A DNA stretch of 64,000 nt from Sphingomonas jeddahensis (lineage in GTDB: Bacteria; Pseudomonadota; Alphaproteobacteria; Sphingomonadales; Sphingomonadaceae). A model generated the notes under the pieces. It searched no databases, had not been told where the DNA came from, and saw nothing but the letters and a program-made list of their open reading frames with translations. The position numbers and the translations under genes are program-made. The first letter of the stretch is position 1, and each line of letters begins with the position of its first letter. Of this stretch, positions 11,248 through 54,083 are shown piece by piece. Location of the stretch: NCBI RefSeq assembly GCF_001981525.1, contig NZ_MPSB01000009.1, positions 1-64,000 of the forward strand, written 5' to 3'.

Positions 11248-11334
11248 CCGTTCGGGCTGAGCTTGTCGAAGCCCTGTCTTTCTTTCCCGCGGCGGGGAGA
11301 AGGGCAGCCCTTCGACAAGCTCAGGGCGAACGGG
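11248..11334. repeat. Family C interspersed palindrome
   Basis: Arms 11248-11274 and 11308-11334 are inverted copies (core GAGCTTGTCGAAG / CTTCGACAAGCTC, flanked by CGTTCG / CGAACG). The right end stops 15 bases before the msrA start codon, so the repeat forms most of the msrA leader. Confidence 0.85.
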
Positions 11335-16176: not shown

Positions 16177-16191
16177 TGCCTCTCTCCATTT

Positions 16192-16284
16192 CGTTCGCCC
16201 TGAGCTTGTCGAAGGGCTGCCCTTCTCTCTATCAGCGCGGCGTCAAAGGAAAGTCAGCGCTTCGACAAGCTCAGCGCGAACGGG
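16192..16284. repeat. Family C interspersed palindrome
   Basis: Arms 16192-16216 (CGTTCGCCCTGAGCTTGTCG then AAGGG) and 16258-16284 (CTTCGACAAGCTCAGCGCGA core) form an inverted pair in the spacer between the dienelactone hydrolase gene and gpmA. It ends 13 bases before the gpmA ATG and so occupies its leader. Confidence 0.85.
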
Positions 16285-50826: not shown

Positions 50827-50913
50827 CACGTGCTTCGACAGGCTCAGCACAAACGGGGTTGGGCGATTGTGGTCTTCATCGGGCCGTTCGTGCTGAGCTT
50901 GTCGAAGGACGTG
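50827..50913. repeat. Family C palindrome in opposite polarity
   Basis: Left arm 50827-50856 (CTTCGACAGGCTCAGCACAA core) and right arm 50884-50913 (CGTTCGTGCTGAGCTTGTCG core). The arms point the other way round from the copies at 11248 and 16192. Lies downstream of ppc and upstream of the PepSY operon. Confidence 0.85.
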
Positions 50914-51022
50914 TTCCACGCGCTCCTCTCGCAAGCCAAATGCCGTATATGCTGTTGCGAATTATTCGCGATTGATTTAGCTGCCGTTGCACGAGGCGTG
51001 ATTGGTCGCGCGGGGGTGGTGC

Positions 51023-51718
51023 ATGCAGGCGAGCGAGGTGGAAGCGGTACGCGAGCGGCGAGTGTCTAGCGACACGCCGGCCCCGCGTCGCGCCGCCGCG
51101 CCCAAGCCGAAGAAGAAGGTCCGCGCCTTCTGGCTGAAGCAGTTGCACACCTGGCATTGGGTGAGCGCGGCAGTGTCGCTGGCGGGCATGTTCCTGTTCG
51201 CCATCACCGGCATCACGCTCAACCACGCCGCGTCGATCGGGGCGGAGCCGCAGGTGACTCGCGCCGAGGCGACACTGCCGCCGCCGCGGCTGGCCGAGTT
51301 ACGCGGCGATCATGCCGAAGGGGCGCCGCTGCCGCCGCGCGTGGCGCAGGCGGTCGCCGGGGCGGTTGCGCTCGATCCGGCGGGGCGCGCCGGCGAATGG
51401 ACCGACAAGGAAGTCTATGTTGCCATGCCCGGGCCGGGGCGCGATTCCTGGATCAGCATCGACCGCGACACTGGCGCGATCAGCGCAGAGACGACGTGGC
51501 GCGGCTGGATTTCCTACCTCAACGACCTGCACAAGGGGCGCAACACCGGTGACCCCTGGTTCTGGTTCATTGATGTCTTTGCGGTTGCCTGCATCGTCTT
51601 CACGCTGACCGGGCTGGTGCTGCTCCAACTTCACGCGCGGCATCGCCCGTCCACCTGGCCATTGGTCGCCACGAGCCTGATCGTGCCGCTGCTGCTGGCC
51701 GTGTTCCTGATCCACTAG
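51023..51718 (+). CDS. PepSY-associated transmembrane protein
   Basis: About 231 aa. A basic cytoplasmic N-terminus (PRRAAAPKPKKKVRAFWLKQ) leads into a first helix (VSAAVSLAGMFLFAITGITL), then a periplasmic PepSY-like domain (KEVYVAMPGPGRDSWISIDR, DTGAISAETTWRGWISYLND), then two C-terminal helices. LHTWHWV and LHKGRNTG contain histidines at membrane borders, a pattern of heme or quinone-linked PepSY redox proteins. First gene of an operon with DUF2271, DUF4198 and apbE. Inferred role: transmembrane electron transfer to a periplasmic flavoprotein. ATG at 51023 follows a G-rich tract. Confidence 0.85.
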   Translation: MQASEVEAVRERRVSSDTPAPRRAAAPKPKKKVRAFWLKQLHTWHWVSAAVSLAGMFLFAITGITLNHAASIGAEPQVTRAEATLPPPRLAELRGDHAEGAPLPPRVAQAVAGAVALDPAGRAGEWTDKEVYVAMPGPGRDSWISIDRDTGAISAETTWRGWISYLNDLHKGRNTGDPWFWFIDVFAVACIVFTLTGLVLLQLHARHRPSTWPLVATSLIVPLLLAVFLIH

Positions 51719-51727
51719 AGAGGTTTC

Positions 51728-52213
51728 ATGCGCCCAGCCTATCTGCTCGTTGCCGGTGCGATCAGCGCGCCAATTGCTGCCGACAGGGCCGCCGCCCACA
51801 CCGTCAGCGTTACCGTGCCGCAGCTGAAGGTGGCCGAATATCACCGGCCGTACGTGGCGGGCTGGCTGGAGCCGGCGGCGGGCGGGCCCGCGCGCACCGT
51901 GTTCGTGTGGTATGACGTAAAGAAGGGCGGGGCGGAGCCGGGCACCAAATGGCTTGCGGATCTGCGCAGCTGGTGGCGCAAGGGTGGGCGGACCATGAAG
52001 CTGCCCGCCGATGGCGTTAGCGGCGCGACCCGCGCACCCGGCACGTACCAGATCCCGCTGCCCAAGGGGCTGCCCGCCGGCCAATATGTGCTGAACGTCG
52101 AGGCTGCCCGCGAAACCGGCGGGCGCGAACTCGTCCGCGTTCCCATCACCGTTCCCGGCCGCGGGGGCTCTGCCAAAGGCGGCGCCGAGCTCGGCACCGT
52201 TATCGTTCGTTGA
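51728..52213 (+). CDS. DUF2271 domain exported protein with ApbE flavinylation motif
   Basis: A 161-aa protein with a short signal peptide (MRPAYLLVAGAISAPIAADR, then AAAH) and a beta-rich domain: VTVPQLKVAEYHRPYVAGWL, TVFVWYDVKKGG. The sequence DGVSGAT at 95-101 fits the ApbE acceptor consensus Dxx(S/T)GA(T/S), which predicts covalent FMN on Thr101. It ends by overlapping the next gene's leader. Nine bases separate it from the PepSY gene. I infer that it is the periplasmic flavin carrier of this operon. Confidence 0.85.
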   Translation: MRPAYLLVAGAISAPIAADRAAAHTVSVTVPQLKVAEYHRPYVAGWLEPAAGGPARTVFVWYDVKKGGAEPGTKWLADLRSWWRKGGRTMKLPADGVSGATRAPGTYQIPLPKGLPAGQYVLNVEAARETGGRELVRVPITVPGRGGSAKGGAELGTVIVR

Positions 52214-52224
52214 GGATCATGCCC

Positions 52225-53082
52225 ATGCGCTTGAAAACCGTCCTGCTCGCCGCGATCGGTGCCGCTACCCTCGCCGCGCCAGCGCTGGCGCATCGCCAGT
52301 GGCTGTTGCCGTCAACGACGACGCTGTCGGACACCAACCAATATGTGACGATCGACGCCGCCATCTCCAACGACCTGTTCTACCCTGATCACGTCGCGAT
52401 GAGCCCGGAGATGATCAAGGTGTGGGCGCCGGACGGCAGCGCCGGGACGATGGAGAATGCCGCGAAGGGGCGGCACCGCACCACCTTCGACGTCAAGGTC
52501 GACAAGCCGGGCACGTGGAAGATCGGCACGGAGATGTCTTCCGTGATGGGCAGCTTCACGCTGAACGGTGAACAATGGCGTGTGGGTGGCCGCCGAGGGC
52601 CGCCGCCCGCCGCGGGAGCCCCGGCGCGGCCGATGCCAAAGTTCGTCGCCACGCCCGCCGACATCCCGGCGGGCGCCACTGACGTGAAGCTGACCGAGGT
52701 GATGGGCCGCAATGCGATCTTCGTCACGGCAGGTGCGCCGAGCGAGGATGTGTTCAAGCCGACTGGCAAGGGGCTGGAGTTCCAGCCGATCACGCATCCG
52801 GGCGCGCTGGTGTCTGACGAGGAGGGGCAATTCCGCTTCCTGGTGGACGGCAAGCCGGCCGCGGGCGTGAAGGTGACGGTGGTGCCCGGTTCCAAGAAGT
52901 TTCGCGAGACGGAGGGCGCGCAGGAGCTGACCACCGGCGCGGATGGCGTGCTGCGGGTCAATTGGCCTGTCGCGGGCATGTACTGGATGAGTGCTTCGCT
53001 TACCGACGCGAAGGTGACGGCACCGCGGGCCACCGAGCGGCGGATGAGTTTCACCACCACGCTGGAGGTTCCGGCGCCCTGA
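52225..53082 (+). CDS. DUF4198 domain exported protein
   Basis: A 285-aa protein with a clean signal peptide (MRLKTVLLAAIGAATLAAPA, cleavage after ALA, mature HRQWLLPSTT). The rest is beta-rich with Ig-like character: QFRFLVDGKPAAGVKVTVVP and GVLRVNWPVAGMYWMSASLT are typical of DUF4198, sometimes annotated as nickel or cobalt-uptake periplasmic domains. A Pro/Arg/Gly linker (GRRGPPPAAGAPARP) lies mid-protein. ATG at 52225 has GAGG eight bases upstream; ATG at 52219 is too close. Third gene of the operon; its stop shares one base with apbE's ATG. Confidence 0.85.
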   Translation: MRLKTVLLAAIGAATLAAPALAHRQWLLPSTTTLSDTNQYVTIDAAISNDLFYPDHVAMSPEMIKVWAPDGSAGTMENAAKGRHRTTFDVKVDKPGTWKIGTEMSSVMGSFTLNGEQWRVGGRRGPPPAAGAPARPMPKFVATPADIPAGATDVKLTEVMGRNAIFVTAGAPSEDVFKPTGKGLEFQPITHPGALVSDEEGQFRFLVDGKPAAGVKVTVVPGSKKFRETEGAQELTTGADGVLRVNWPVAGMYWMSASLTDAKVTAPRATERRMSFTTTLEVPAP

Positions 53083-54083
53083 TGGGCGTCGCGTGTTCGC
53101 ACCGTCCCGCCAAGTCGATGCGGCTGGCCGTGCCAGCGATCGATCCGGCGGCGCTGGCGGGATGGGACCCACATGCGGCAGTGATGGAGTTCGACGGCGC
53201 GACGATGGGCACGCGCTGGCGGGCGCGCTTCGCCGCGCCGGCGCAGCTCGACCTGCCGAGGCTCACGCGGGCGATCGACGCGATGCTTGGCGAAATCGTC
53301 GCCGAGATGAGCCACTGGGCGCCCGATTCGCTAATCAGCCGCTTCAATCGTGCGCCGGCGGGGCGCTGGCTGGCGCTGCCGCCGGACTTCGCCACGGTGA
53401 TGGCGGCCGCGCTGGACGTGGCGGCGAAATCGGATGGCGCGTTCGATCCGGCGATCGGCGCGCTGGTCGATTTGTGGGGCTATGGCCCGGTGTCGCGGCC
53501 TCAACCCCCGGATGCGGCAGCGATCGATGTCGCCGCAGCGCAGGGCGGGTGCCGGCAGCTGCGCTTCGATCCGCATGCGCGCCGGTTGCAGCGGCTGGGC
53601 GAGGTGCAGCTCGACCTGTCCGGCATTGCCAAGGGCTATGCGGTCGATCGCTTGTCGGCGGTGCTGGCGGCGCATGACGTGCGGCACAGTCTGGTCGAGA
53701 TCGGTGGCGAATATGTCGGGCGTGGCCTGCGGCCCGATGGCGACCCGTGGTGGGTCGAGTTGGAGACGCCGGGCGCGCTGGCTGCGCCGATCCGGGTGGC
53801 GCTGCACCAGCACGCGGTGGCGACATCGGGCGATTATGTGCGTGGGCGGCATACGATCGATCCGCGTACCGGGCGGCCGGTGGCGCACGCGCTGGCGGTG
53901 AGCGTGGTGCACGCCTCGGCGATGCTGGCGGATGCCTGGGCGACGGCGCTGGGCGTGGCGGAGCCGGACGAAATGATGGCGCTGGCGGAGGCACACAGCC
54001 TGATGGTGCGCGCGCTGCTGCGGCGGCGTGATGGGGTGAGCGAATGGATCAGCCCGGCGTTGGCGGCGCTGGTGGCGGGCTGA
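53082..54083 (+). CDS. apbE: FAD:protein FMN transferase
   Basis: A 333-aa ApbE. It moves FMN from FAD onto a Thr or Ser of a target protein, Mg2+ dependent. Segments: FDGATMGTRWRARF, DSLISRFNRAP, DGAFDPAIGALVDLWGYGPV, LDLSGIAKGYAVDRL, LVEIGGEYVGRGLRPDGDPW, HAVATSGDYVRG, HTIDPRTGRPV. No signal peptide or lipobox is visible in the first 35 residues, unlike most ApbE, so localisation is unclear. Fourth and last gene of the operon, overlapping DUF4198 by one base. Confidence 0.92.
   Translation: MGVACSHRPAKSMRLAVPAIDPAALAGWDPHAAVMEFDGATMGTRWRARFAAPAQLDLPRLTRAIDAMLGEIVAEMSHWAPDSLISRFNRAPAGRWLALPPDFATVMAAALDVAAKSDGAFDPAIGALVDLWGYGPVSRPQPPDAAAIDVAAAQGGCRQLRFDPHARRLQRLGEVQLDLSGIAKGYAVDRLSAVLAAHDVRHSLVEIGGEYVGRGLRPDGDPWWVELETPGALAAPIRVALHQHAVATSGDYVRGRHTIDPRTGRPVAHALAVSVVHASAMLADAWATALGVAEPDEMMALAEAHSLMVRALLRRRDGVSEWISPALAALVAG

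Follow-up and report, generated by a model that had tools for sequence, protein, structure and literature searches.

The systems closest to the locus considered here are known from two lines of work. In the survey of Méheust 2021 (PMC8238504), 3220 'PepSY-like' flavinylation clusters were described, of which 2833 contain DUF2271 and 1500 contain DUF4198; reduction of ferric iron was proposed for them. In Caulobacter crescentus, Fur binds and represses the CC3059-CC3063 operon, which iron limitation induces (PMC3751524); transposon insertions in this operon lower fitness in EDTA (PMC11870441). A comparable operon is located at positions 51,023-54,083 of the window analysed here, that is, the first 64,000 nucleotides (forward strand) of contig NZ_MPSB01000009.1 from Sphingomonas jeddahensis (RefSeq assembly GCF_001981525.1). 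It combines, as do the surveyed clusters, a PepSY protein (PF16357/PF03929), a DUF2271 protein with an [ST]GA[ST] motif, a secreted DUF4198 protein and an ApbE, and it matches the Caulobacter operon in these four genes, in their order and in having a Fur-type box upstream (PMC3751524, PMC11870441). As both lines of work already describe such clusters, the operon was filed in a known class. A first-pass annotation made from the sequence had called the pathway uncharacterised; however, the operon class, the modification of DUF2271 and the iron-reductase proposal were all published in 2021 (PMC8238504). The operon most likely encodes an assimilatory ferric reductase.

The four genes, their coordinates and their spacings of 9, 11 and -1 bases had been annotated exactly to the base, and Pfam assigns all four. 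The first (51,023-51,718, + strand, as are the other three) encodes a PepSY_TM_like_2 membrane protein of 231 residues (PF16357, E = 6.6e-76), to which PF03929 also matches (E = 9.8e-13) and whose gene neighbours those for DUF2271 and ApbE. The second (51,728-52,213) encodes a DUF2271 protein of 161 residues (PF10029, E = 7.3e-40), a predicted periplasmic carrier of flavin mononucleotide (FMN) with signal-peptide-like residues 1-23. The third (52,225-53,082) encodes DUF4198, a predicted secreted metal-binding beta-sandwich protein (PF10670, E = 2.9e-48); an earlier in-frame ATG, 6 bases upstream at 52,219, would shorten the gap behind DUF2271 to 5. The fourth (53,082-54,083) encodes ApbE, a flavin adenine dinucleotide:protein FMN transferase of 333 residues counted from the ATG at 53,082 (PF02424, E = 5.2e-72). 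Signal-peptide calls throughout are based on the best 11-residue hydrophobicity of the N terminus, which is a heuristic and not SignalP. By its domains the operon belongs to the 'PepSY-like' flavinylation class: the PF16357/PF03929 membrane protein is encoded within a flavinylation-associated cluster. Such systems are expected to have a signal peptide on at least one of ApbE, FMN-bind, DUF3570 and DUF2271; here the DUF2271 N terminus is signal-like by the heuristic.

The predicted flavin acceptor is DUF2271, in which the motif DGVSGAT is present at residues 95-101 (52,010-52,030, + strand), where it had been annotated, with Thr101 (52,028-52,030) as the predicted FMN site. Of 167 related loci, 166 have Thr at the position of Thr101 and the remaining one has Ser, whereas residue 95 is Asp in 118, Asn in 30 and Ala, Ser or His in 19 (residue counts hand-summed from the motif list); the strict [ST]GA[ST] form is found in 143, the others reading SSAT, SGPT, SRPT, SAPT and similar. 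By these counts Thr101 is strongly conserved yet Asp95 is not obligatory, and the annotated requirement for Asp95 was too strict, as Asn, Ala or Ser replaces it in 48 of 167 loci. The choice of Thr101 as the ApbE target agrees with experiment on a homologue: ApbE flavinylates the DUF2271 of Amantichitinum ursilacus, and T-to-A mutation of the Thr abolishes it (PMC8238504). Judged on this conservation, the motif is not a chance occurrence. The comparison that the annotation had suggested, between DUF2271 genes with and without an adjacent apbE, has little power because nearly all DUF2271 genes of the genus adjoin apbE (PF10029 is present in 177 of 295 genomes). In one genome (G300), which has a complete operon (L151), an orphan DUF2271-DUF4198 pair (L139) without apbE or PepSY carries an intact motif (DGISGAT).

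Thus by domain, motif and target residue, the protein has the features of a DUF2271 substrate of ApbE. Moreover, FMN_bind, NqrB/RnfD and DUF3570 were searched for in the genome and none was found, so DUF2271 is the only ApbE substrate of a known type found there. Its N terminus is of the exported type, with no twin-Arg in 145 loci. No PDB structure matched its fold at an E value of 0.001 or lower, and the model is weak near the motif (predicted local distance difference test, pLDDT, ~58). Two variant architectures were seen elsewhere. In six loci (L045, L050, L075, L079, L081 and L097) ApbE and DUF2271 form a single fusion protein that has a signal peptide; four of the six also have PepSY. Five others (L051 and L098, L099, L100, L101) carry a distant DUF2271 type with the motif NGITGAS or DAITGAS, a signal-less ApbE and a nearby flavodoxin-FNR reductase, and have no recognised PepSY_TM_like_2 operon partner.

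For electron supply, the PepSY protein had been proposed as a conduit across the membrane, and its histidines back this proposal. His45, His68, His170, His204 and His231 are conserved at 0.98-1.00 over 155 loci, and the conserved pairs fall in predicted transmembrane segments, as in di-haem PepSY conduits of the FoxB type; on the likely topology, they could bind two haems, one near either face of the membrane. No sequence match was found between PepSY_TM_like_2 and the solved PepSY structures. In other Alphaproteobacteria (L086 and L089-L095), a flavodoxin-FNR reductase is encoded after apbE, as judged by position and tblastn; in L086, L090, L091, L094 and L095, which are non-sphingomonad, the reductase directly after apbE has a membrane-like N terminus. 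No such reductase was found downstream of apbE in the loci of the genus (150 were read for >1.2 kb downstream), and no fused flavodoxin-FNR reductase was found in the genome of the window.

Upstream of the operon, at 50,956-50,970 (+ strand), lies TGCGAATTATTCGCG, a near-perfect 7-1-7 palindrome of the Fur type (14 of 15 positions) and the best match in the window, which the first-pass annotation had missed. Of 164 operon loci, 107 have a match of at least 12 of 15 near the PepSY start, whereas only 19 of 3280 shuffled sequences do, a statistic that is somewhat optimistic because the consensus was partly modelled on the site of the window itself. Within the window alone, sites with up to three mismatches to the pattern were in no excess over chance. 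By sequence, this putative box in the promoter is what a member of a Fur regulon would carry, and the conserved box, together with the Fur-regulated Caulobacter homologue, backs the role in metal uptake that had been annotated. Separately, a dispersed sequence resembling repetitive extragenic palindromes, TTCGACAAGCTCAGCACGAACGG, occurs in inverted pairs, with seven copies in the window versus zero expected; pairs lie at 50,834-50,906 (between ppc and the operon), near 11,248-11,333 and near 16,191-16,283.

Taken with the analogy to Caulobacter, the locus is probably a Fur-regulated flavinylation operon of the PepSY type that reduces periplasmic ferric iron for uptake; FeoB is encoded in the genome. 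In the following scheme, we infer that haem is bound, which way the electrons flow, that iron is the substrate and that ApbE acts in the cytoplasm. A cytoplasmic or quinol donor would supply electrons, which two b haems, bound by the PepSY_TM_like_2 histidines, would carry across the membrane to the FMN that ApbE is predicted to attach covalently to Thr101 of the exported DUF2271. The FMN-bearing DUF2271 would in turn reduce its target, Fe(III) or a ferric chelate, in the periplasm, where DUF4198, through an N-terminal His metal site, would probably hold or hand over the metal, while the signal-less ApbE would act in the cytoplasm before DUF2271 is exported. Four points weigh against this proposal. 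An ApbE that appears to lack a signal peptide clashes with standard periplasmic flavinylation; the flavodoxin-FNR reductase, the electron supplier in other Alphaproteobacteria, is absent here; the Fur-box scan used a consensus built in part from this very site; and the DUF4198 whose metal preference is known, albeit a distant homologue with 13% identity in the aligned fold, favours nickel. The overall interpretation offered by the first-pass annotation is borne out in part.

The first of these points concerns where the flavin is attached. No second ApbE is encoded in the genome. The operon ApbE has the PF02424 domain, matches the solved ApbEs of the PDB (E = 3e-44) and shares near-invariant positions that include K184, G208-G209, H257 and A283-D284, but the heuristic revealed no signal-like stretch, whereas a typical extracytosolic ApbE has a signal peptide or a lipobox. 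Over 145 loci of the genus, the median of the best 11-residue hydrophobicity was 1.15 for ApbE, 1.80 for DUF2271 and 2.45 for DUF4198; a signal-like stretch passed the threshold in 6 of 145 ApbEs (the copy in the window not among them) versus 144 of 145 DUF4198 proteins. In place of the signal, the ApbE N terminus carries a short conserved motif, R-[IVL]-[AVL]-[ILV]-P. ApbE is likewise signal-less in most operons across the phylum, one locus (L221) being a clear lipoprotein exception, and the fused ApbE-DUF2271 proteins carry signal peptides. Because the operon ApbE has no detected signal peptide while DUF2271 appears exported, the site of flavinylation does not follow the simple periplasmic picture.

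One way out would be for ApbE to reach the periplasm by an unrecognised route that dispenses with a classical signal peptide. Classic ApbEs are indeed periplasmic lipoproteins, and complementation in Salmonella did not succeed with a cytosolic form (PMC12052999); the ApbE of a betaproteobacterial operon is described with a signal peptide in PMC8238504. We nevertheless hold this route rather unlikely, given the scarcity of signal-like N termini in the genus, the similar state of most operons across the phylum, and the finding in PMC8238504 that ApbE and DUF2271, both deprived of signal peptides, support flavinylation in the Escherichia coli cytosol. That DUF2271 is flavinylated in the cytoplasm before its export, as the preferred scheme supposes from the N-terminal sequences, is a proposition on which our judgement is evenly balanced. 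A cytosolic ApbE of Klebsiella (reviewed in PMC12052999) likewise has no signal peptide, but its substrate is a cytoplasmic fumarate reductase, whereas that of the ApbE in the window is predicted to be exported.

The predicted metal-handling partner is DUF4198, which is very likely a periplasmic metal-binding protein, one of the two accessory roles that had been annotated. Its H23, H56 and H191 are invariant (0.98 for H23 over 155 loci), and His23 is the predicted N terminus of the mature protein. The AlphaFold model (pLDDT 91.7) resembles the Zcp structures (PDB 9MHI-9MHO; Z 20) and the nickel-bound IsDUF4198 (PDB 9GCB; Z 14.5), the latter being in the same Pfam family; the first model residue to be aligned is residue 23, which is paired with chain residue 1, an N-terminal His that binds metal, so that His1 of IsDUF4198 is aligned to the predicted mature N terminus here. 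The assignment to metal binding thus follows from the invariant His together with the fold match that places His23 at chain residue 1, although identity to these proteins is 13-16%. A literature search on Zcp, limited in reach, returned nothing directly relevant.

The same electron chain might instead serve nickel, zinc, cobalt or copper, with DUF4198 as a selective metal chaperone. IsDUF4198, with its N-terminal His, binds Ni(II) with a dissociation constant of 18 nM (PMC12537917), and the closest folds are Zcp structures with zinc, copper and cobalt. Yet nickel and zinc require no reduction, the Fur-like box is conserved and the Caulobacter homologue responds to Fur and iron, which makes a metal other than iron quite unlikely. 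A further alternative is a non-assimilatory periplasmic relay with oxidised proteins, quinones or toxic metals as acceptor: DUF2271 and PepSY are generic carriers, and systems of the PepSY/MsrQ type serve several acceptors (PMC8238504), but the Fur-like box and the homologue phenotypes favour iron, and we consider such a relay very unlikely.

The junction between DUF4198 and apbE raised a question of its own. In the window, an in-frame CTG (53,079-53,081, + strand) overlaps the TGA stop of DUF4198 (CTGA) and stands directly before the ATG of apbE, downstream of a Shine-Dalgarno-like GAGGT inside the DUF4198 3' end (53,065-53,069, + strand); a further ATG is found at 53,118, directly before the conserved RLAVP. 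As the ATG follows the CTG directly, apbE needs no unusual start here. In many relatives, however, this CTG is the sole candidate. No ATG, GTG or TTG occurs between the DUF4198 end and the conserved ApbE motif in 72 of 145 loci of the genus, and in 69 of these (for example, L036, L056, L063 and L247) CTG is the in-frame codon over the DUF4198 stop, with no canonical start anywhere in the open frame upstream in 33. In every CTGA locus apbE is read in the -1 frame with respect to DUF4198, whereas a canonical start is present in all 30 loci where apbE lies in a different frame (29 by script, an ATG in L053 having been misparsed), and the starts of DUF2271 and DUF4198 are canonical in 145 of 145 of the same operons. 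By the script rule, 29 of 77 named loci are CTGA-only, among them Sphingobium sp. SYK-6, Sphingomonas rubra, S. desiccabilis, S. azotifigens, and Sphingopyxis and Brevundimonas strains. In L057, L117 and L126, GTA or ATA (with a TAA stop) stands in place of CTG with no canonical apbE start, and their DUF2271 motif is DGISSAT.

The ApbE N-terminal region appears translated in the CTGA loci, because the Arg and the Pro of its motif are each conserved in 69 of 69 with synonymous codon switching (CGN/AGR) and 55% of the differences in the region fall at codon position 3; on the same observations, decay of apbE where a normal start is missing was rejected. Which codon stands at the overlap depends on the third base of the final Pro codon in DUF4198; it is GTG in six loci of the genus and ATG in L245 and L248. 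At that Pro codon CCC is over-represented (89 CCC versus 13 CCG; 12 versus 12 in control frames; background 38% CCC; Fisher P value = 1.7e-5, uncorrected for relatedness), and supported branches of the ApbE tree show 12 or more switches of the start state. The GAGG is retained by 66 of the 72 loci that lack a canonical start, by 22 of the 42 same-frame loci that have one and by 5 of 30 other-frame loci. Its raw association with CTG is strong but loses significance once relatedness is allowed for on the tree (median P value 0.25), and it was dropped as proof of CTG initiation.

From these patterns we are fairly confident that apbE is started at CUG in the CTGA loci. A -1 frameshift at the DUF4198 end, giving an exported DUF4198-ApbE fusion in CTGA species, would account for the missing start and missing signal peptide together and suits the constant -1 frame and the three loci with GTA or ATA, but is highly improbable, as C-TGA is constant while the last sense codon varies (CCC, GGC, AAC, CGC), relatives carry GTG or ATG at the CTG position, other-frame loci have a stand-alone signal-less ApbE with ordinary starts, and 33 of 69 CTGA loci offer no other in-frame start. 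Tentatively, CUG-started, low and coupled synthesis of a signal-less ApbE in about half of the loci of the genus may go together with flavin attachment before export. The junction resembles the ATGA/TGATG overlap coupling of Huber et al. 2019 (PMC6728339) in its stop-start overlap and internal Shine-Dalgarno-like sequence, but differs in that the overlap codon is CTG in many relatives, not ATG or GTG, and CTG is unmentioned in that work. Nothing directly relevant came out of a literature search, limited in reach, on CTG starts that overlap stop codons in bacteria.

The operon adds a well-supported example of predicted flavin-based iron reduction in a sphingomonad-type genome. As ApbE is usually called periplasmic and yet is mostly signal-less in this widespread operon class, the site of flavin attachment becomes directly testable. 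The conserved CTG, alternating with GTG and ATG through synonymous upstream changes, offers a probable bacterial CUG start of a kind rarely met in nature, which gene finders allowing only ATG, GTG and TTG would mis-annotate or miss.

Set beside the described systems, the window differs from the Méheust clusters in that its PepSY protein is without the NAD-binding domain and its ApbE is without a signal peptide, a state unmentioned in the signal-peptide and cytosolic-ApbE passages of PMC8238504. The five-gene Caulobacter operon has in addition a CysJ-like flavoprotein reductase of the flavodoxin-FNR type, which this operon does not encode and of which the genome has no fused form. What is new here is that no export signal was detected on the flavin-attaching enzyme and that, in about half of the loci of the genus, its gene lacks an ordinary start codon. 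The first-pass annotation covered neither of these features nor the missing terminal reductase.

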